DNA of 64,000 nucleotides, from positions 28,631,953 to 28,695,952 of the forward strand of contig NC_036445.1 in the NCBI RefSeq assembly GCF_002775205.1, written 5' to 3'. Made by a program: the position numbers and the translations under genes. The DNA comes from Xiphophorus maculatus. Its lineage: Eukaryota; Chordata; Actinopteri; Cyprinodontiformes; Poeciliidae. A model generated the notes under the pieces. That model had not been told where the DNA came from, did no database searches, and worked only from the letters and a program-made list of their open reading frames with translations. Of this stretch, positions 12,254 to 48,364 are shown one piece after another. Each line of letters begins with the position of its first letter. The stretch's first letter is position 1.

Positions 12254-14878
12254 CAAATGGAGAAAAAAAAACATGGAACATCTGTCAACCTTACCAGGAG
12301 TTGCCTGTCTGCCAAAATTACTCCAAGGTTGTTCTGACGGCTCATTCAGGAGGTCACAGAAAAAGCGGAACTCAGTCTGAAACACTGTAGACCTCACTTC
12401 TCTCCGTTAAAGACAGGGTTATTGACGCAACAATTAAAAAAAAAGAAACACATGGCAACCATTGGAGAGCTCCTAAAGGAGTGAAAACCACTTCTGACCA
12501 AAACTAGATCAGAGGCCTGTTACATTTCCCCCCAAAAAATATATATTGGACTGTCGAGACGACAGTGAAATCTTCTGGAAGGTGTGCATACCGTTACATC
12601 AGACTAAAGCAGCGTTTTAGGAAATAAATACAACATCATCAGTCAACTATGATGGTAATGTGATGGTGTGAGACTGCTTTGCTTCTTCAAGACTTGTCAT
12701 AATCGATGGAACCACTAATTCTGCAATAACAGAAAATCGTAAAGGCGAACGACCAGCAGTCAGTTCCTGGTCTTAAGTCAGTGGTCTCAAACTGCATTCC
12801 TCAAGGGCCAGTGTCCTACAACTTTCAGATGTCTCTCTGCTTCAGCACAACCGGGTCCAATATTAGCTCAGTGGCAGAGCTCTGAAGAGCTTGACTGCAT
12901 GCTAGTGAGGCGGTTTTGCGTTTAATTCAATGGACAAGGGGCAAATCTAAGAGTTGAGGGAGGGCTGTGGTTTGAAACAGTGATTTGGTACACACCAACA
13001 AATGAGCAAATGAATGCCTCAAAAACAACTAAATGAAGGTTTTGGGGGAGGCCTAGTCAAAGTGGTGTGGCATTTCAAACTCCCCAGTGTTCCTATATCA
13101 AAACAATTCTCCATAGATTAGTGGGTCATCATTCCTCCTTAGAGATGAAAGAGTCATTGCTAATGAAATGCTTGAGAACAGATGGTGCCACCGAGGCGAA
13201 GCAGTCATTGGGTTCAGAGGGCAATTACAGGTTGGCCTGCATCGCTTGTTTTCCCTTAAATAAATTAGACTATCCGTTTGAAACTGCTTTTTGTGTTTCC
13301 CCAACTCATCTTGATCTATTATTAAAATGTGTTTCTTGATCTGAAAATGTGACAAAGGAAAAAAACATTAACAAAAAAAAAACAAAAAAACAACAACAAC
13401 AGAAGAAATCTGTAAGGGAGCAAATACTTGGTATGCGATCAAAAAAATGTCTATTTTTGCCTTATTATACAACAGAGAAACACAACGTTGCACTCCCCTC
13501 TTCAGTGGTTTCTTCCTCGAATCTAAAAATAGCCCATTCACTTTACTCAGATAGACTTACAGGCCAACGCTAGCATCATCATCATCATCATCATCACAGC
13601 TGTGCCTTTCAGATTTGCTCAACCAAGTCGCTTACACAAGACATGAGGCGCATCCATTGAATCCAAGGCTACACCGTTAGCTCAGTTGTATATACAGGCT
13701 CTCTAGGCCCTTTGGAAGCCATTAAGACTGATAGGCATTTACTTGGTAGCATTAAGTCTAGTCTGGGAATTCATTTAAAAAAAAATGTCTGGCTTTAGTT
13801 TGACGAGAGAAAGCAAAGTGTTAACTTTGCCCCACCAGAGACACACCCAACATCTACTCACTGCGACTTATTTGTTGTATAAGAAATGTTGTAAGGTAAC
13901 ATTAATGTACTCGATGGCCACGGAAGCATCATTCCGTGTGCCACCGCAATCCGATCAGTTCAGCTCTTAATCGGCTCCTTTAATCAGATGGAAGCATCAG
14001 GATGATCAGCCTGATCTGAAACGAGGTGGCGAAACGGACACAGAGGCTCCTAATGACAACGTGGTGAAACATGATGGGAGCACGCACGTGGGGAGGAGGA
14101 GGAGGAGAAACGGGCTCCGTGGAAATCAGCGAAAACACACAAGAGTGAGAGCAACAAGGGTCCGAGACTCCTTTGTGTGTCACGGAGCCTGATGGCCTCA
14201 TGGTGTTGTTTTCATTCCTACATGCGCAATGAGCCCAAACTGGCTGGGGGGGTTGAGAAACAACAAGAAATAGTGTGAAACAGGCTTTGTGTGAGCCTAT
14301 TAGCCCAACTTAGGGTTTATATATAGGCCTAACTGCCCGCCTGCTGTGGTCCTCATGTTCAAACTGCGCCTCATTTGAATAAACCTGTGATAATAAAGGC
14401 GACAAGGAGGTGGATTGATTTCGGACAATCTTGAGCAGCTGAGCCTGCCATGAATTTTAACTGGGCCGGGTTGTCATAAACAACCGCTTCTGTTACCTTC
14501 ACAGCCGTGCTGGTCCATCCTCACCGAGCCGTCTTTCTGTATCCTAACATCCCCCGGTCCAGATATCCTAAGCGGAGCCGCCGCCGCCGCCGCCTCCACC
14601 GAGGATGCTCCGGTGGCGGCGGCGCCAGCGAGGCTCCCTTTACCCCGGTGGGTCTTCGCCAGCGTCTGGCAGCACTGGTAACACACCGCCCATGCCTGCT
14701 CCTCATTGATGGGCTGGCTGTAAAGCTTCAGTATCTCCTCCAGAGACAGGTCCTCGGCATCCTCCGATGAATTCATCTCGTCATGGTGCTTCCGCTCAGC
14801 CCGGCGAGTCGCTGCTGCTGCCGCCGCCGCAGCATCCGTCAGCACTTCGTGGTCCCCGCCGAAGCGCCGCTCGGCCAT
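1965..14878 (-). CDS. spire1: spire1, protein spire homolog 1 (5' part; continues past the left edge)
   Basis: Spire nucleates linear actin filaments with formins on vesicle membranes. Exons, in transcription order: 14878-14497 (382 nt), 9048-9020 (29 nt), 2201-1965 (237 nt). Phases close exactly (382+29=411; +237=648 nt, 216 codons). Exon 1 starts MAERRF, has two poly-Ala runs, then the start of the KIND domain ([20 protein letters not shown]), which binds formins. The microexon encodes KYSPSTTTE, and exon 3 continues with [20 protein letters not shown] and [13 protein letters not shown], all KIND hallmarks, then an acidic DEGYE stretch. Donors are AAG|GTAACA, GAG|GTGAGT and AAG|GTCAGC; acceptors are CTGCAG. 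The residues fit SPIRE1 better than SPIRE2 as I recall those families. WH2 repeats and the FYVE-like end lie off the window. A second in-frame Met at residue 35 is a possible alternative start. Confidence 0.93.
4444..4773 (+). CDS. Candidate small secreted protein (unrecognised, 109 aa)
   Basis: The ATG is in a strong Kozak context (AACATGG). The first 23 residues look like a signal peptide: MEKLPPS, a hydrophobic YYALLVCFL core, then SNA|CS. Residues after it include possible dibasic processing sites (GGNGRR, where Gly before RR would suit amidation, then FKK, RR and KK), as in a peptide-hormone precursor. A canonical AATAAA lies about 200 nt after the stop. It sits inside a spire1 intron on the opposite strand. 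No family is recognised, no upstream exon or promoter is established, and another frame is also open over 4613-4843. A chance frame is a real possibility. Confidence 0.22.
   Translation: MEKLPPSCYYALLVCFLSPSNACSVPQTGGNGRRLSTKNQSLKANGPNRFKKESSSGGKHLLDTQSGVHGLLPLQPRHKLSQLRRADSVSKKYFQGNTDTKFWIFNHSD
4972..4977 (+). terminator. AATAAA poly(A) signal downstream of the 4444 frame
   Basis: AATAAA hexamer about 200 nt downstream of the candidate stop codon at 4771-4773. Such hexamers also occur by chance in AT-rich DNA, so it is only supportive. Confidence 0.25.
6474..7007 (+). repeat. Interspersed repeat family A, copy 2
   Basis: Same family and orientation as the copy at 13-646. Shared blocks include ATAAACATTTTATTG-like and GGATTAATAATTG-like stretches, a TTTAGAGTCTGTAAACT-like block, and the end CCGATTAATCGTTTCAGTCC. 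Non-coding. Confidence 0.6.
8749..8780. repeat. Perfect 13-bp inverted repeat
   Basis: Arms GCTAGTTACATCC (8749-8761) and GGATGTAACTAGC (8768-8780) around a 6-nt loop. No element ends were identified around it. Confidence 0.7.
12203..12254. repeat. (CATC)n microsatellite
   Basis: About 13 tandem CATC units with one interruption (CGTC). The minus strand reads as a WMDG repeat, so the open frame across it is an artefact of the microsatellite. Confidence 0.95.
13574..13597. repeat. (CAT)8 trinucleotide repeat
   Basis: Eight CAT-type units in a row inside spire1 intron 1. Confidence 0.85.
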
Positions 14879-15060
14879 CCTTTCATTCTCTCAGCGAAGG
14901 AGGCCCGAAGACGAGAGCAGGTCCAGGCCGACGTGACAGCGGCAGTCTGGGGGCATTTGTGCTTAGTTTCACAAGGCAGCAGCGCTGACCACTGATACAA
15001 GAAGAAGCACGGTGACTGTCCGCTCCTTGGTTTTGCTGTCGCACGTCAGTAGGTGGCGTA
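14879..15060 (-). promoter_or_regulatory. spire1: spire1 5' leader and probable promoter
   Basis: GC-rich, CpG-containing stretch directly upstream of the spire1 start codon, contrasting with the AT-rich flanks. Exon 1 and this leader together form a CpG-rich block of roughly 14.5-15.06 kb. No TATA box was recognised. The transcription start is not determined. Confidence 0.5.
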
Positions 15061-31847: not shown

Positions 31848-32061
31848 GCTACTGACTTAAAAATTGTCTCCATATCGGCTGTCGGAATTTACTGAAACTA
31901 TTTCCATATCGCTTTTATTTTGTTAAATTGCCGGATGTGTCTTCATTTTGTACTTTCCTGCTTGACGCTCCCGAGTGTCGGTCACTTCCGTCGTCTTCGT
32001 TCAATCAGTTGTAATAAATGAGTGGTGCCAGCAGCTAAAATACGCAACTCTCACTGTTTCT

Positions 32062-32106
32062 ATGGCAGCTGCAGCTTTCTTTGTCAGTAAACCCAACACG
32101 CTTTAA
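32062..32106 (+). promoter_or_regulatory. azin1 short AUG upstream ORF
   Basis: ATG at 32062 opens a 14-codon frame (MAAAAFFVSKPNTL) ending with TAA at 32104-32106, two bases before the ATT that starts the conserved upstream frame. Only relevant if transcription starts upstream of 32062. Confidence 0.45.
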
Positions 32107-32108
32107 AA

Positions 32109-32919
32109 ATTCCGCCAAAAAGGAAAAAGCGTTCTCGTCCCAGTTTTGGGTCTTCAGCCAACGTAAGTAGCGTTAGCTGGTTCCACTGTTAGCTCCTTGT
32201 TAGCCATCGCTTGCTGTTTGCTAAATTAAGCGGGACGGACATGTTTGCCTGGTGTGAATGCCTAAAAATGCTATTAACGTGGTTGATATGGTAGTAACTT
32301 TACTCAGATTGTATAAAAAACGTTCAAATGACTGCCTTGAAGGTGGCTTCATGCTAATATCCGATAAATGACACAGTAATAATAAGCTAAGGGAGAAATT
32401 ACAAATGAATCAATGTCATATTAGGTGACTTAATATTGTTTGGCGGATGAGGAGTAATAAAGTTTTACGGTCATAATGTGATTGTAACTCTCCCACTTAT
32501 GTTTGTGTGTTTATAGGTATATATTTTAATGTGCGAGTTTATGGTTTCATATTTTAAAAAAATAGTAATTGTAGGATTATACCCATAAGTATATCAAGTC
32601 CTTAGCCTCTATTTCTTTCTTTCTTACTAAAAAAAGTGATAGTTGATTTGTCAATAAGTAAACTAAACTAGTCATTTAGTAATGCCTTAATTACTAGCTT
32701 AGTAATTAAGGCATGTAAGTAATAGGAAAGGAAAACCATTATTGGGCTACTACTTGCTGTGTTTTTTGTCTTTTAACTTGGTCAGTAATTGTTTTGTCTT
32801 CCTCTCTGTCCTCCTCTGGTTCTCTGCAGGTGTTCAACAACTACCCAGAGGATCTAGGGGCAGCTCTTAACAGAGAGCCGTTTGACTTCAACGCCGAGCC
32901 GCCTTGGGATCCTAGCTGA
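32109..32919 (+). promoter_or_regulatory. azin1: azin1 conserved non-AUG upstream coding region (uCC), polyamine sensor
   Basis: Joined frame 32109-32162 plus 32830-32919, 47 codons then TGA at 32917-32919. It starts at ATT (32109), continues PPKRKKRSRPSFGSSAN across the splice, then VFNNYPEDLGAALNREP, and ends NAEPPWDPS. The frame is open only from 32091, has no AUG, and ATT is the first plausible near-cognate codon. In AZIN1, a conserved upstream region initiated at AUU contains a PPW motif where high polyamine stalls elongating ribosomes. The resulting queue raises AUU use and lowers AZIN1 synthesis. The PPW motif is present six codons before the stop. The join across the intron keeps phase exactly. 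Confidence 0.88.
32682..32714. repeat. Perfect 15-bp inverted repeat, 3-nt loop
   Basis: Arms ATGCCTTAATTACTA and TAGTAATTAAGGCAT around GCT, in the intron that splits the azin1 uCC, about 115 bp before the uCC second exon. Confidence 0.85.
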
Positions 32920-33912
32920 TAGCGGACGAGTTCCTCACTGGACTCCTCCATGTAGGTACATTGATGCCTCTTATCAGAAGATACACAAATAGCATTTTCA
33001 CGTACCTTTTTTTTTTACGCAGTGTATCTCAGTTGGAAGGCTACTTCTGTTCAGCCTCTGTATCGAAAAACTGTCCCACATAAATTGCAGAATGGCTATA
33101 TTTAGATTCAAACCTCTTAGATGTATTTTTGGCTTTTGTTGCAAAAAAAAAAAAAAAACATTGCATGTTTTTTTTTTTGTTTTTTTTTCAGCTACAGACT
33201 TTCTAATTACACTTAAATATTCCCTTTGCTTCTTTAACATTTTGCTACAAAAGGCAATGAAGTACAAGTTGACTGTCAGCAGTGGCTTCTAATGTAATAT
33301 TTGCTGTTTAAAAATGTACTGAAAAGACAACAGAGTAGACATTACAGGTCACAGTTAGCAATAATTACCTCACCTTCACCGACATGGCAACTTTATCGCA
33401 ATATTTGGCAACTTTTCCAGCAAAAGATCAGTGAGTTGTTTATGTTTTTTAATGGGTTCATAGTTAATGAAATTGATTTTATTAGCCTAAGTAACACTTT
33501 TTTTAATCATTGTGATATAAACAAATCAAGTTAAGACTAGGTGAGCATACACAGAAACAAAACAAAATGTGTGCCCGAAAAAAAGGAAGGAAAAAAAAAG
33601 TCCAGTACAGGCATTTGTAATACGGAGTGTGTTTTCTGATGAAATTGCAGAGGAAAAATAATAATTATAATAAAGGGAAACAAATACCAATAATAAAGGG
33701 GGGAAATGAATGTTTAATGAAGTTACTAATAGAGCTTTATGTTGCATTAATGTTTTGAAACATTCCCAGCAGATTTTGACTTTTTTTTTTTCCCCCTCCA
33801 CAGTTTGTTGTGTAAATCTAGGACCCCAGGGGCTTGACGTGCAGCCACGAAAACCACTCTTGACCAGCTCCGTTCTTTATGCCTGTCGGATCAGAAGACA
33901 AAGATCCAGAGG

Positions 33913-36900
33913 ATGAAAGGCATCACAGATGAACCGCAGTATTCTGTCAGCTTACTGGACGGAGGCACCGCCCTAAGTGATGTGATTAATAATCACATTG
34001 AAGAACAAACACTGGTGAGCGCGCTCCACCTTCACTAAACATTGCTTTGAATAGTTTTTGTTAGATTCAGGGCCATAACTGTGTTAAAGTCCATTGGTTT
34101 ACACCTTTTCCAAACTTAGCAAAGTGAGGGGGAGCTGACTGGTGCCCGGCCTGCCACCATAACAAATTTTTGCTGGAGCGATAAACTGTTCCAGACGTTA
34201 TTGCGGTAAACAATAATATTGTTGTTTTGAGACCATTTTCAAGTATTGTAATGATAATGGCATAATAATGCAAGAAAATATTCTTAAAGATCAATAAGCT
34301 TTAAATTCTGGTGACGGTTTAATGCTGGGAGTGTAAGATATTTAAAAAATCCAAAATAAATGAACAAAAACAACAGAAAGAACAACTAAAATGACTTATG
34401 AAGTCTGTGTAAACAAAACTGTCCTTCAGAAAAATGGTTATTTGAGAGCAAAGCAAACAGACTGAAGGCTTTTTGGTAAAAAAAAGAAAACGATAAATCA
34501 CGCTAATGGAAATGATTGCGTTTGATAATACTCGATATTTAATTTATCATGCGATTTAATTGATTTATTATTGCGACAGGCCTAGTTGGTATATCTTAAT
34601 CTCATTCATATTTCTGCTCTCGCTCTTTGCAGTCTGAGAAGAGTGCTTTCTTTGTCGCTGACCTGGGAGCGATCATGAGGCAGCACGTTCGCTGGCGAAC
34701 TCACATGCCCCAAATTCGTCCTTACTATGCTGTCAGATGCAACAGCAGCCCGGCAGTGATTGAGGTTCTCGCTGCCCTTGGCTCCGGGTTCACGTGCTCC
34801 AACAAGGTAATGCTCACACCTTATAGGAGTTTTGCTGTCTGTCGGTTTGGTCCGATGGGCGTGAAGTGTTTCATTTTAGCAGAGCGTCAAGATGCCTGTA
34901 TTGCTTCTTTCTCAGTTCAGACTGTTTTTGAATTCCAGTCTGAACTTGAGCTCGTGCAGAGCCATGGGATTCCCTCCGAAGACATCATCTACAGCGGCGT
35001 TTGCAAACAAGTCTCCCACATAAAATACACGGCTAAAAATGGCATTGACCTCCTTGTGTGTGATAACGAAGCAGAGCTGCGCAAGATTTCTCGCTGCCAC
35101 CCTAATGCCAAGTAAGTCAGTGCAGTATGTGTTTCCAGTCAGTGGACTGATGCACTTTGATGAGGAACTAGATGTGCTGTGTTCAGAATTTGTGGATGAT
35201 TTCAGTCCCCAGTTTTGGTAAAGCTTAGACCTGCTGCTACTGAAGTTAGCTTAGTGAGATTCTAAAATAAGTTTTTTATATTAGATTGTATTATTAAATT
35301 ATCATTCTGTCTAGCCTTCCATGAGCATTTTCTTTTATAAGAAGTTGATGTGATGGCACAATAATTTAACCATTATTGAATTGACATTTTGAGCTAGCTG
35401 CTAAGCATCATTTAGCTTTACTCAGACGTCAGTGAGACTCTAAAGTTTCTAAAATCCTGCCATGGCCTCCAAGATGTTCCAAGCTTAAAAAGATAAAACT
35501 TCACTGTATTACGTTATGTTATGTTACAATGATATCTTATTTACAGAGACGCCATAATCCATTTTATTTTTGATTTTGGTTGTGTGTGATGTTTTGTTCA
35601 TTTTCTTTTTATTTATCATTTTTGGTTGTTGTGTTTTATTTTGGATATTTAAAATTTCTTGCAGTTTCAATGTTAAGTGTTCTGTACAGACTTAAAGTTT
35701 ATTAATCTTTGGAAGGCTGAATTCGCATTATTAGGACATTATTTTAGGATATTGACAATGGCGTAAGTCATGTTTTTCTTTTTTTTTTCCAAATCTTTTC
35801 TTGCTAAAAGATAATTTAGGAAAAAAAAGACATTGGCCATTATTTTAGGAAGGTGATTATATAGTACTTGAAATGGTTTTAAAACAACACTATTATAATT
35901 TATGGCAATAACTATTGGGGCAGGTTATCATCTGAAAACTGTGTAATTGTGATCAATGGGGTATCGTGTCTAGTTGGTGTAGCAATAGACTTCCTGTAGC
36001 TCATGCTAATTACTTCTTTAGCAGAGTGCTAACCAGGGTAAGTGCAAGAATCCAGGTTGGTTCTGGTGTTAAAACACCTGACAGTAGTTAAAAATGTAAT
36101 TGCACCACCTTGAACATGGACATATACTGTGAAAGAAGCTGGACATTGTGACCCAACACCAAATTGTTGAGTGAACTTCCACATCGGTAACCGCTGCTCT
36201 TTCTGCCATGCGTCGACCCAGGCTGCTGCTGCAGGTGTCCACCGAGGCCCGTAACCCAGACGACGAGATGGGCATGACGTTCGGCTGCTCCCTCAAAGAC
36301 TGCAGGCGTCTGCTGGAGAGCGCGAAGGAGCTCGGTGTGCAAGTTGTGGGAGTCAGGTGAGACGCGGTGAAAATCATCCTAAACAAACACACTGAAGTGA
36401 TTCCACAGCAGCAATTCATTCCCGAGAAAATAATATTCTGCAGTAAACCGAATAAAACCGGACTTTGTGCGACTGTGACGGGCGTCTTCTCCCTTTCAGG
36501 TCTCACATTTCCAGCACATGTGACGATGACCAGGTTTACAGTCATGCAATCTCTGATGCCCGCTGCGTCTTTGACATGGGTGTAAGTATTGTAAATTTAA
36601 AAGTGAACTGGTTTTAGTTTCAGCTCCAGAGATGGGTAAAACGGGTAATATTTCGCTTTTGTCTCCGGCAGGAGGAGGTCGGTTTCAGCATGAACATCTT
36701 GGACATTGGAGGCGGATTCAGTGGTTCTGAGATTCAGCTGGAAATGGTCAGCTGTGCTTTCATGATGTTTCTGGATGTATTCGATTTAGCTTAGACTTAA
36801 AATTCCTAACATCCTGTCATGTTTTTGTTTTTTTTTTAGATTAACTGTGCTGTCATGTCCATGGTGGACCTTTACTTCCCTTCTTCCACTGGAGTCTCCA

Positions 36901-38915
36901 TTATTGCAGAACCCGGAAGCTTCTTTGTGTCCACTGCATTCACTCTGGCTGTGAACATCATTTCCAAAGCGGTGATGGCTCGTGACTGCCAGGACCAGAA
37001 ACAAAGTAGGTTGAACAATGCTTTGTGGTTAAGATGAATAATTTAATTTGATGCGTTTACGGGATTAATTAAAGCTTTCGGTCACCTTTAGACTGTATTT
37101 TGAAGTATTAAATAAACTCTACATTCTTGAACAGGCGAGCTGTCTCCCAATGAGGAGCCAGAGTTCCAGTATTACATGAACGAGGGGGTGTACGGATCAT
37201 TTTCAAGCAAGCTCTCAGAAACAGTAATTGCAACGCCGTCTGTTCATAAGGTGAGTCTCAACAACATTCCGGACATAGAACATGCAAACCCAACAAGACT
37301 GTTCTTTCCACCCACGCCTTAAAGTAGGGGTGCACCGATGACAGTTTTCTGGCCGATCACAGATCTTAAAAAAAAAAAACAAACAACCTGCTAATTCCGA
37401 TTTTGGCCAATACTGAGTTTTTCACCTGAAACGTCAGTAGGTAAATCAACAAAATTGATAAGTTGGCAACAGTGGGGTGACTATTGTTAACCATGCACAT
37501 TAAAGACATAGTTTTACATTAAGTAAACACAGTTATCATTTACATTTGTAGTCAGATTTTACCTATTTAATCCAATTTTAACTGCAAATGTTTAGATCCA
37601 TGGCTTACGCCGCTTTATTTTGGAGAATAAGCATCTGCACTTTAAGACCGTTGCTCGTGTTGTATGTTGTACTGTGGAGGGACGTCACATAAATCGACAC
37701 TAACATCGGTTTTGGCTGATAATGGTTGTTTTTTAACTGTCTTCTGTATCAGTCTTCCTCGTGAGCTACAACTCGTCAATGAGCTGCATAAATCAAAGTC
37801 TGCCAAGACTAGAGTAAGATTCTGGTTCAGCAACAGGTTGTCACTTGTGCAGCAGATGGTGCACATTCCTGTGCTTTTCCAGGTTTCCTAGTTGTTTGGA
37901 AATGATCCCAACAATCAGCTGATCAAGCAGACTAGTGCAGGCTCAGATAATGGAACTTGACGTGTATCACAGACTACATTCAGTTGTGAAAACAACCTCA
38001 TTCAATAGCGTAGTATAGCATTATGTCTAATGTCCTTTAAATTGCCAATAGTAGGGCTAAATCGGCCCTGATTTTCTTAGTTTTTGGAGATCAACCGATA
38101 CGTAGATGTGCGAAATTTAATACTGTGATTTAAATTTCGTTGTTCTTGTGACAATGACAATAAAGATTTATCTATCTATCTACAGTATCTATGAAACTGA
38201 TCTGCACAGTGGCCAACTTGGTGTTATATTTAGGGACTTTTCCTACAAAAATCAGAATCAGCAGGTCAGCCTTTTTAGAAATCTGTGATCAAGTAGAAAA
38301 CTGCAATCAGTTCATCCCTAGCTAGTCAGTATACATGGCACGTCTTTGAGGATTTCTTCACTTTTTTTTTTTTTTACAACTCTTTCTACAAATATGACAT
38401 TGCTATCACAGATAAGGGAACATAACTTCAACAAATCTGATCTGTCCCTTTAATTTCCAATGGTTTAATGATTCTGTTTGATGCCTTGTGGACAGAATGC
38501 GTCTCTGGACCTCCCAGTGTTCAGCAGCAGCTTGTGGGGTCCCTCTGGGGACGACCTGGACCAAGTGGTGGACCACTGCCTGCTACCTGAGCTCCACACT
38601 GGGGACTGGCTGCTGTTTCCACAAGCCGGAGCCTACACTCTGGGTCAGCCTCTATTCCCTCCCACTGACTCAACACCGCCCCCTGTCCACTATGTGATAT
38701 CCTCGAGAGATTGGTGAGAATCTCTCTGACGTTTTTCTTCTGCATTCAGAAGGAATCAGTTATTTAATTTTTTTATTTTTATGCTTGTTTCCTTCTTTAG
38801 GGTAGAAATGCAGGATGCTGGTGTAACCAATGAGACTACGATGAAGTACTTCTCATGGATCCCATATTTCCTCGGCTCCTGCCAAACAGAAGCGGCACTG
38901 TCTGTTCCAGCTTAG
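33913..38915 (+). CDS. azin1: azin1, antizyme inhibitor 1 (complete)
   Basis: A catalytically dead ornithine decarboxylase homologue that binds antizyme, freeing ODC and polyamine uptake. Exons: 33913-34014, 34633-34806, 34939-35111, 36222-36356, 36500-36581, 36672-36746, 36840-37005, 37135-37250, 38496-38713, 38801-38915. Total 1356 nt, 451 residues plus stop; human is 448. ODC-fold signatures: [43 protein letters not shown]'s PLP lysine is Arg in YAVRCN, the catalytic Cys of WGPxCD is Gly, and the Asp before CASK is Thr, so it should not decarboxylate. That, and the leader, mark azin1 not odc1. It starts MKGITDE. Convergent with klf10. Confidence 0.96.
34158..34582 (+). repeat. Interspersed repeat family B, copy 1 (azin1 intron)
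   Basis: About 425 bp closely matching 55701-56116 in the same orientation. Shared phrases include CATAACAAATTTT at the left, GAGACCATTTTCAAGT inside, and CAATAAGCTTTAAATTCT. It ends near a GATTTATTATTGCGACAGG phrase typical of non-autonomous DNA transposons. Non-coding. Confidence 0.75.
37325..38320. mobile_element. hAT-like element with long TIRs (azin1 intron)
   Basis: The left end TAGGGGTGCACCGATGACAG and the inverted right end TAGGGATGAACTGATTGCAG match over roughly 42 bp, continuing through CAGTTTTCT and GATCACAGAT. About 996 bp, with no intact transposase. A LINE tail at 38095-38185 is nested inside. No convincing target duplication. Confidence 0.7.
38095..38185 (+). mobile_element. 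Nested LINE 3' tail
   Basis: Phrase AATTTCGTTGTTCTTGTGAC followed by AATGACAATAAAG and a TATC tandem tail, typical of fish L2-like 3' ends. It lies within the 37325-38320 element, so it inserted later or was carried by it. Confidence 0.65.
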
Positions 38916-40433: not shown

Positions 40434-43063
40434 TCAGCAATTAGAGTGTCTCACGAGAGCGTTCATAGAGGAGACTTTAACAGCAATGGATGCAGAGAGG
40501 TCTGCGGTGGGGCTGATCCCTAATGCCCAGAAGGGTTTCTTCTTCGCCACAAAGTGTCGTCGGGCGTGCTTAGCCAGGTGATCGCTGCGCATGAAGCGGC
40601 TGAGGCACATGGGGCACGTAAACCTTTTCTCTCCAGTGTGTGTTCGACGATGGCGGGAAAGTTCATCCGAACGAGCGAATCGCCTCTCACAGCCCTCCCA
40701 CTTGCATTTGAAGGGTTTTTCACCTGTTGGGACAAAGACAGAGGGGATTTGACTTTCACTGTGCTTGAATCATCAGCAAGATCGCACTTCTTGAGATTCT
40801 TCGTCTCTTACCTGTATGTGTCCTTATGTGGGCCTTGAGATGGGAGCTCTTGAAGTAGGTCTTGCCACAGTCCTCATGAGGGCAAACATGACTGCGCACA
40901 CGTGACGACTCTCTTTGCAGAGCGGCGCTCCTTTGCTCCAACGCGGCACGCCCAGGAGCGGGGGCAATGGGTGCAAACCTGGTGCCACCAGATGTCCTCT
41001 CCACTTGCTGAAGGTTCCAGATGGCAGGAACAGATGGTTGGTGGACAAGAAACACTGCGGGCCCTTTCACCACCTGACCTTCTACTAACAGGATACGTGG
41101 AGGGGAACCTGTTGGTATCAGTGGCGATCCAAGTTCCTGCTGTGAACCATGTGAGGTTGTGATTGCTAATGGAACAGACGTAGAGGTTGTGACACTGTTT
41201 TGCGGTCTAGTGGTGAGTGTGGAGGACAAGGGAACGATCTGGCTAAAGACTGGTACATGAGAAACTAGAGTGATCCCAGCCGGAACTAAAGGCACCATGT
41301 TTGATCTATCGTTTGGTTTTATCCGACTCATCTGGATCTGGCTGGGTTCAAAATGCACTGATGCATCTTTGGAGGTTTTCTGTTTTGCAACAGTTTTATC
41401 AGAGTCTTGGTTAGTCCAACTGTTAAAGGCGTCCACATTCGTTTTAGAGTCTTGCGCAAGAGACACCGAGGCTGTGTCTTCTTGCAAGGGTTGATGAGTG
41501 CTACAGGAGCAGTGCTGGATATCCGCAGTGTGGCGGATCACGCTAGTGCACTGGTACTTCTGGGAAATGGCTGTATCCTCTGGAGAGTGATGCAGTTTAG
41601 GCGGTGACCCTGAAAGGGTGGCCTCACAGTGGGGTGGGCTGTAGGGTGGCGTCATACACTGCAAGAAAAGTCAAAGAGTGGGACTAAGTTTTCAGTTCTG
41701 CTGCCAATCCACTCACACCACTTAATATTTTTGCAGGTTATGAACACAAATTATGTTGTATTTTGCTGAGATAGACCAACATAAAGTAATGGATTACCGA
41801 AAAGGGGGAAAGATAATGCATGGTTTTCATTGTGTTAATTTGCAGGTCACAAAGACACATCTCTTAACAGCTTCTTCCAGGGTAGCCCAGTGAATAGTTT
41901 CATCCTTCTGCCTGTCAACTTTGACGATCTTCACTGTCCCTCCCTATAAAACGCCGACAGTATGACGCTGCTGCCCCCCTGTTTAACTTTAGAGATAATT
42001 TGTTCAGGGTGTCAACTATCCACATTTGGAGGCCAACAAACTTTATTATCTGTTCAGACAACCTTTATAACATTTCGCTGAGTCACTTATAGGCTTGTGG
42101 CAAGCTGGAAATGGGACCTCTAATGTGTTTCTTTCAACACTGGCTTTCTTCTTACCACCCTTCCATTAAGGTCCAGATTCATGGAGTGCTCCACTAATAG
42201 TGTTAGCAGATCTTCCCATCTGAGCTGTACCCCTTCCTTCAGAGATGCTTTGGCTTTCGTGGCCACTTCTTTCTCTAATCCTCTCCTTGATTTGCCCATG
42301 AGTTGAGTTGCATCACCAGGTCTGGGTAGGTTTTTAGTTGAGATGATAGATTGAACATCACTCCATGAGATGTCCAAAACTTGGATAACTGTTTTATAGC
42401 CTCACCTTGCTTTAAATCTCTCACACAACTTTATCCCTGGCCAGTCTGTTACGTCACTTGGTCTTCATGATGCTCTTAGTTCACTAAAAGTCTCCAAAAA
42501 CCCCAGAGATGCCTTCACTGAACTGTACAGTTATGCATGTTACACTTTTCTTTTTTTTTTACATTTTGCTTGAGAAAATTTTCAATTCACAGATATGAAC
42601 AGTGAAACCCTAAAAGTGTGAGGGGTGGGGAGGCATGGCTATACTTGGAAAAATGCTAGCCACCCCACTGGAACACCCAGAGAATCGTGTTCAGCACCCA
42701 TATGAACATCTTCTGGTGTCGCCACTGGATATGTGCGAATTTGTGTTGGTCCGTCAAATAACAGCTGGCCAAAATACAATGCAGAAAAGAAAACAAGCAA
42801 TGTGACATTCACTGAAATTATAGTTCACTTACAAAAGACGACCCAAGCATCGCAGAAGGACCGGAGGGTACAGAGTCATCCTCTGAGCATTCTGAGGAGG
42901 GGGTGAGGGGTCTGGGCTCTTTGGGCCGGAAGTTCCTCATCTTCCAGTGCTCAGTCATGGAGATCAGAGCTTCCACTGCCTGCAGGTCACCTGCACCCAT
43001 TGAAGAAGGCTGGAAATCAGACCGGGTGTCTAACACCTCATTTTGGTCCATTTCAACTTTCAT
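40434..43063 (-). CDS. klf10: klf10, Krueppel-like factor 10 / TIEG1 (complete)
   Basis: TGF-beta-inducible GC-box repressor. Exons, in transcription order: 43063-42833, 41658-40812, 40723-40434; 1368 nt, 455 residues plus stop. The N-terminus has the Sin3-binding-type helix (AVEALISM), then a proline-rich region with FCMTPPYSP spanning the first junction and [11 protein letters not shown], both as in KLF10. Three C2H2 fingers at the C-terminus: [55 protein letters not shown], with TGEK linkers. The tail after finger 3 ([10 protein letters not shown]...) is unlike the human one. The start is placed at MKVEMD, just inside the exon after acceptor TCTCTAG at 43065; the upstream exon appears non-coding or was not resolved. 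KLF11 is the alternative, but the azin1 neighbourhood favours klf10. Confidence 0.92.
41735..41880 (-). mobile_element. DNA-transposon relic in klf10 intron
   Basis: On the minus strand contains a 'TGTTGGTCTATCTCAGCAAA'-like phrase shared with the GTGAATACTTTTGCAAGG family. Short and diverged. Confidence 0.4.
42120..42377 (-). pseudogene. Tc1/mariner-like transposase fragment
   Basis: An 86-codon frame containing [11 protein letters not shown] and, near the end, [11 protein letters not shown] then KETH. It lines up with the paired-like DNA-binding part of fish Tc1 transposases (NLPRxGRP..., GRVARRKPLL). No catalytic DDE region follows, so it is a broken relic. It lies in klf10 intron 1, between exons 43063-42833 and 41658-40812. 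Confidence 0.6.
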
Positions 43064-43689
43064 TCTAGAGATCGGACAGACAAAAACAAGAGAGAAGTGT
43101 TGAGAATTTGCTCCGGGCTCCACACAGTAATGTCTAATGCCTCACTGACAGTCATCCTGTGGAGGTTTAGTTTTCAGGTTTATTGATTCAGCTATTTCCA
43201 GGACATGGGGGAGGGAGGACGTGCAACCGGCATGATCAGCCGGTGTTCTTCACTCACTCCCCTTTCACCTAGTTTCTAGTGAAAGCTGAGAGTGGTTACA
43301 AAACAACCAGACAACCCCTTTATGGCAGGGGTCTGGCACAGACCGCCAGAGCCAGCCATCCTTCTCCCTCCTGTCTGCCATAAGGATAAAATGCATAGCA
43401 GGTTGCAAATATAAAGCAATCTTATCCATGCAAAAGTAATCTTTTCAAAGAAATGTTATCTAATTTATGCAATATTTATTTCTCTTTTTTTTAAGTGGAA
43501 TTAAAAAATCTTACTTACATCTATGTTGGATTGGGCGATTTTTAAAAAATTTCCCCAGGGGAGCAGTCTTTAGGTTTCACCTTTAGGTCAGCCTTGTCGT
43601 CTGTGCGTGAATATCTAAGTGCAGAATTTGATGTTTCCCACTTTTCTCCTCTCGACCTGTTTCTCATTCATCGTCTCAAATGCGACGGG

Positions 43690-46631: not shown

Positions 46632-46919
46632 CTACCGTAATCTTCTTTGTTTGAATTCAATCGCTTTTTGATTGTATAATCGTGTTTGAAGTTTTGACAT
46701 TGTTAAATTAGAAATCTCGTCCAGGAATTTGAACATTTCCTCAGGCTCAAAGGTCAGTCCGATGGCGGCTGAGTTTCCTGGCTCTATCTCTTTGTATCCA
46801 TATTTAACATCACCACAGGTCATCTGATAACCCACTGCCCAGGCAGCTAAAAATAGGGCTGGATTTTTATGAAGTTTGTTTGACTTTCCTGTTAAAAAAG
46901 GGTACAGGCTTTTCCTCAT
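46632..46919 (-). other. Unassigned 95-codon open frame
   Basis: Starts MRKSLYPFLTGKSNK and includes LFLAAWAVGYQMTCGDVKYG and TFEPEEMFKFLDEI, ending FKQRRLR before a TAG. Codon composition looks protein-like despite AT-rich surroundings. I do not recognise it. A transposon or retroelement fragment is the likeliest source; a lone short gene is less likely because no promoter or partner exon was seen. Confidence 0.25.
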
Positions 46920-48364
46920 GGGACGTTGACCTGATATCTAACCTTTGTACTAAATTCTGAACAGAAAGGGGGAAAAAATGCAGACCTTAAATGGTTACAT
47001 GATATGTGGAGCGTGCATACTTACAAAGAGAAAGGTTATATCATTCGAATGTAGGTTTTCCATTTCTCCCTTTCATTCCATTCGGGTTTTTGCTCAATCC
47101 GGTCCCTCAGATCCTTTCAGGTAATGTTACATCACCAAACAATTAAACAAGAGGACATAAAAACGACAGTGGTCACATTTTAAATATAATATCTCAAACA
47201 GAAAGCTGGAACTGAACATATTTTTGGTCTAATGAACAGAAGCAGTAGGAAATGCACTTTGTACAGTGATTTTCTTAGTTTTACACAATGCTCTACTTGG
47301 CATTTGCTCAGTATTAGGTAATGAATTCCAAAAAGTCATGCTGCATTGGAGAATGTTGGAGATTAAAAATAAAACAAAATTCCCCTTCTATTCCTGCTTC
47401 TGATTGAGTCTTCTCCAGCAAGAAAGCCTCTCATTTCAATACCATCCCCGCAGGACGTTTTACCATCAGCAGTTAATTTTACAGACGCGGTATTTGACAA
47501 CTGTTATTCACCATTTGTTTCACATGTCTCACATGGGGCAGTGCATGAAAGAAATAGCTGCCATTTCTGGCACTAATCTTTATTAGATTAGGAAGAAGGC
47601 GAACAGAGCCACCTAGTGGTAAAAATATAGAAAACCCTGTATGAATTGTCCATTTGACAAAGGGGACATTTTAAAATAAAGGTAAAGAAAATAACCCAAA
47701 TATCTTTCTGGGGATATATTCATTTGAAAATAAAAATGTATATTTCTGTGTAACTCAAACCACTTCCATTCATAATGGAGTTTCCCAATGTACAAGCTAC
47801 CTTATACTGTAAAGGTTTTTTTTCTCGAGATCCAATAAAAATGTGCTTGTCCCACTATATCCTCTGCATATATTTGGTGCATTCTCTCCGTTTTGATTCT
47901 AGCTGTTTTTATTGCAGCTGAGTGACTTCTCAAAAACGGCTCAGTCAAATTTTGGGTTTATTAGAGCACAACATAGAACTTTCTCTGAATTAACTCGAAC
48001 AGAAAAAACGTTGTTTTCATCTTAGTTATTTTTTTTTATTATAGTTTTTTTTTATCCTTTTACTCTGAACGGTTCTGTATTTGAACAGACCCTACGTTGA
48101 CCTGTAGATGCACAGGCGTTTTTTTCTGTTGTTGTTGTTTTTAAATGAATGTGACCCTGGGTGAGCCACTACTTCAGCTTGTCAAAATTTCTCAAAGAAA
48201 AATGTGTTTTATAGAATCTGTCTTTGGTGTACAAACAAATACAGATGTTTTTCTGAACTGTGATGGTTTTGTCAACATTCTCTACCTCTATCTCAGCATG
48301 CTAGATGTGCTTTTAGAATATGCACTGTCTACATCCCTAAGGTTTCATGTTTTTTTAAGGGTTT

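Follow-up and report, generated by a model that had tools for sequence, protein, structure and literature searches.

The leader of the azin1 gene of Xiphophorus maculatus contains a reading frame that starts at an AUU codon, lacks any AUG and, as the sequence comparison supports, is orthologous to the human AZIN1 uCC from its AUU to its stop codon. We consider it very probable that the frame is the fish ortholog of the uCC, with a polyamine mechanism that is carried over from mammals by orthology. The mammalian AZIN1 uCC was reportedly described by Ivanov in 2008 and 2018. The present analysis covered a window of 64,000 nucleotides (contig NC_036445.1, positions 28,631,953 to 28,695,952 of the forward strand), and all coordinates refer to this window. 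Reading-frame analysis showed that 32109-32162 and 32830-32919 (plus strand), when joined, give 47 sense codons that run from an ATT (32109-32111) to a TGA (32917-32919). The first exon contributes 18 codons, namely the AUU start and codons 2-18, and ends at 32162; the second exon contributes codons 19-47 and the TGA. The full peptide of 47 residues is IPPKRKKRSRPSFGSSANVFNNYPEDLGAALNREPFDFNAEPPWDPS, ending with AEPPWDPS, and the joined frame contains no ATG in any of its three phases. On the 5' side, six codons separate the ATT from an in-frame TAA; none of the six is a near-cognate start, and the ATT is the first near-cognate codon after this TAA. Further near-cognate codons of the frame are AGG, AAG and, at the beginning of exon 2, GTG. 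A preliminary description of this DNA had proposed precisely such an ATT-started frame of 47 codons without AUG across 32162|32830, ending with AEPPWDPS and with an intact PPW motif. The spliced sequence bears out the frame, and the Pro-Pro-Trp codons were found at 32899-32907 (plus strand). These codons represent the published pause motif, the pause itself being known from mammalian papers, and the frame is closed by a Pro-Ser-stop (32911-32919, plus strand) that is identical in human. A Pfam search with the 47-residue peptide gave no match above the cut-off of 25 bits (best value 12.8 bits), and a search of the Protein Data Bank gave no match at E values up to 10.

The uCC is split in phase 0 by a leader intron (32163-32829, plus strand). 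The junction AAC|gtaagt ... ctctgcag|GTG has consensus splice sites, with the frame resuming at 32830, and we infer that 32162 is joined to 32830. The donor of this intron scored 7.51 with a matrix built from the nine coding donors of azin1 itself, which range from 5.63 to 11.21. Without splicing the uCC frame would run into a stop after 27 codons and the PPW would not be reached. Exon 2 probably ends at 32951 (donor score 6.22), and exon 3 starts at 33804; with these borders the azin1 ATG follows the uCC stop at a distance of 141 nt. An alternative donor GT, located 4 nt further on after 32955, scored 1.45 compared to 6.22 for 32951 and was set aside. If used, it would add the start-stop pair ATGTAG (32950-32955; AUGUAG) to the leader, and the ATG at 32950 enters the leader only with this donor. 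The term antizyme inhibitor was absent among the matches listed in a literature search for splicing of the antizyme inhibitor leader.

The human AZIN1 uORF peptide, 52 residues beginning with Ile, is printed in a supplementary-figure legend of PMC9648851, and our comparison was made with this one relative at the peptide level. Fish and human peptides aligned from the first to the last residue with a score of 135 and identity in 29 of 46 aligned residues, while the best of 20,000 shuffles of the full fish peptide scored 61. The earlier assignment of the frame to the known AZIN1 uCC is confirmed by this end-to-end alignment. The stretch FDFNAEPPW is identical in both species, as is the terminal Pro-Ser-stop. 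A basic segment just after the start had likewise been pointed out; KRKKR is indeed present at codons 4-8 (32118-32132, plus strand), the human counterpart at these codons is KKRRR, and the basic run is therefore a family trait. In the exon-2 part 21 of 28 aligned residues equal the human ones. This part alone reached a score of 115 against the human peptide, a value attained by none of 20,000 shuffles (maximum 54). Six-frame translation of the window yields 2,896 fragments without a stop, of which the one from exon 2 scored 117 and the next best 42. The exon-1 part (8 of 18 aligned residues identical) ranked third among the same fragments, below an unrelated one; its score was matched by 14 of 20,000 shuffles and equalled by 20 of the 47,674 18-mers without a stop that the window contains, those that overlap the uCC being counted as well. 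By itself, the exon-1 half thus appears close to chance, weaker than the exon-2 half and not decisive. It is supported by its position, its phase and its IPPK start, a tetrapeptide that opens only one of the 47,674 18-mers.

The fish peptide is shorter than the human one (47 versus 52 codons), and the distance from the AUU to the second Pro codon amounts to 126 nt in fish and 141 nt in human. With the ribosome footprint of 30 nt given in PMC11058473, these distances correspond to 4.2 and 4.7 footprints. In the two sequences compared, the exact spacing of AUU and pause is therefore not common to both. PMC9082881 places the AUU about 30 codons 5' of the stall, a distance that does not fit the human peptide as printed, in which the Trp is residue 49.

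The gene 3' of the leader had been named azin1 in the preliminary description, and the protein comparison agrees with this. Its coding region (33913-38915, plus strand) consists of ten coding exons with 451 codons. In the Protein Data Bank the encoded protein matched chains 4zgz (554 bits) and 3btn (547 bits), both named antizyme inhibitor 1, better than the best ornithine decarboxylase (ODC; 416 bits); we take 4zgz to be the human and 3btn the mouse protein. Both decarboxylase domains were found by Pfam. In the alignment, the fish protein has Arg69 and Gly359 opposite Lys69 and Cys360 of the aligned ODC, which are presumably catalytic residues of that enzyme; the ODC numbering was counted by hand. 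Lys and Cys are retained at the two sites in both aligned AZIN1 chains, in contrast to the fish protein, and this azin1 has therefore lost both. The presence of Arg69 and Gly359 is in keeping with an antizyme inhibitor, as opposed to an enzyme. Zebrafish is reported to have both azin1a and azin1b.

According to PMC4458265, a uCC has about 50 codons, no in-frame AUG and an AUU near its 5' end, and, with reference to Ivanov 2008, is present in all available vertebrate sequences. The fish frame has 47 codons, no in-frame AUG and an AUU near the 5' end, is located upstream of the AZIN1 coding region, and encodes the conserved peptide (29/46) with an intact C-terminal PPW. It shares with the mammalian uCC the position upstream of AZIN1, the AUU start without in-frame AUG, IPPK followed by a basic run, FDFNAEPPW, the Pro-Ser-stop and a length of about 50 codons. 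As a general vertebrate trait already known from PMC4458265, the fish uCC is ordinary for a vertebrate azin1. Data on a fish uCC were not found in the available portions of PMC9082881, PMC11550727, PMC7530721, PMC9648851, PMC6067879 and PMC9859826. The present frame thus adds a fish copy to a known polyamine feedback switch. With its spacing of 126 instead of 141 nt it is a natural variant on which a requirement of the queuing model for one set distance could be tested directly.

By orthology with mammals we infer that the fish AUU is translated and that azin1 is repressed by polyamines. Most scanning ribosomes would skip the AUU and translate azin1. At high polyamine levels the function of eIF5A at the PPW would be impaired, so that an occasional ribosome translating the uCC would stall there; scanning ribosomes would then pile up as far as the AUU and initiate there, by which azin1 would be shut off. 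With less AZIN1, antizyme would be free to act on ODC and polyamine synthesis would decrease. Such a queuing model is described for mammals in PMC9082881 and PMC11058473. In mouse reporters, spermidine represses 6.5-fold relative to polyamine-depleted cells, and repression is essentially removed by an AUU to UUU exchange and similarly by changes of the last 10 sense codons (PMC4458265).

Counted against this explanation were the near-chance resemblance of the exon-1 half taken alone, the C at position +4 of the AUU, the spacing, which falls 15 nt short of the human distance, and other AUGs in the leader, which could change ribosome flow. Non-AUG initiation depends on a G at +4 (PMC9082881). 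Two AUG uORFs precede the AUU on the plus strand, one of 6 codons (32018-32038) and one of 14 codons (MAAAAFFVSKPNTL, 32062-32106), which terminates 2 nt 5' of the AUU; both are of relevance only if transcription starts 5' of them. A third uORF of 17 codons (33879-33932, plus strand) has a weak context (TTTATGC) and overlaps the azin1 start in another frame. Provided that 32951 is the end of exon 2, the spliced leader is free of ATG triplets in every phase between 32062 and 33879. The G2 quadruplex of the AZIN1 5' leader is defined in PMC6067879 by four GG runs with loops of up to 16 nt and at most 45 nt in all; among the 19 GG positions of the spliced leader (32000-33915) no set with this pattern was present.

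The Pro-Ser-stop that is kept in fish and human could point to a different site of control. The uCC would then be real, and termination at the Pro-Ser-stop, alone or together with the PPW, would be the main regulatory step, as in yeast HOL1. PMC10855120 writes the motif as PPWxxPS-stop and in one place assigns AZIN1 repression to termination at PS-stop. The motif in this form has two residues between PPW and PS, whereas fish and human peptides have one. PMC9082881 and PMC11058473 place the stall at the PPW, and we regard this alternative as rather unlikely. The yeast HOL1 uORF resembles the fish frame in its Pro-Ser-stop end and in a published control by polyamines and eIF5A (PMC10855120), but encodes MLLLPS-stop, starts with AUG, lacks PPW and belongs to another gene and organism. 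Similarly, the AMD1 MAGDIS uORF is a polyamine-responsive stall in the leader of a polyamine gene (PMC9648851, PMC10855120) but has an AUG, only six residues and no PPW (PMC9648851).

The unfavourable +4 position (PMC9082881) could also argue for initiation at another in-frame near-cognate codon, such as the GTG at 32830 (context aacGTGttc), leaving the exon-1 half untranslated. The in-frame location of this GTG would agree with such a start. However, human shares the IPPK directly after the AUU, and mutation of the AUU in mouse essentially abolished the response (PMC4458265), which makes a GTG start very improbable. Still less credible, as judged from sequence, is a chance or relic likeness without function in Xiphophorus maculatus, against which stand the alignment score of 135 compared to the shuffle maximum of 61, the open frame across the phase-0 splice and the intact azin1 frame. 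The leader might also be layered, a combined reading to which we assign a low probability. 40S subunits that have terminated at the 32062-32106 uORF would pass the AUU before regaining initiator tRNA, providing a bypass that does not respond to polyamines. Since start and pause lie on different sides of the leader intron, the sensor would be disabled if this intron were retained or another first exon used. Splicing and sensor could moreover be linked, as mouse cells reportedly splice Azin1 in a different pattern under the influence of polyamines.

Other coding sequences were noted on the minus strand of the window. An open frame of 101 codons (46632-46937) gave no Pfam match at E values up to 0.01, and its Protein Data Bank matches, with E values of 0.53 and above, did not exceed chance level. 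Two exons with a KIND domain (Pfam PF16474) at 1875-2261 (9.1e-33) and 14474-14890 (1.1e-22) presumably belong to a spire-like gene. A C2H2 zinc-finger gene extends over 40434-41670 and 42818-43141; Krueppel-like factor 10 (2epa) was among the best 60 of its 216 matches, though not the top one. We assume that klf10 adjoining azin1 would fit the human gene order.
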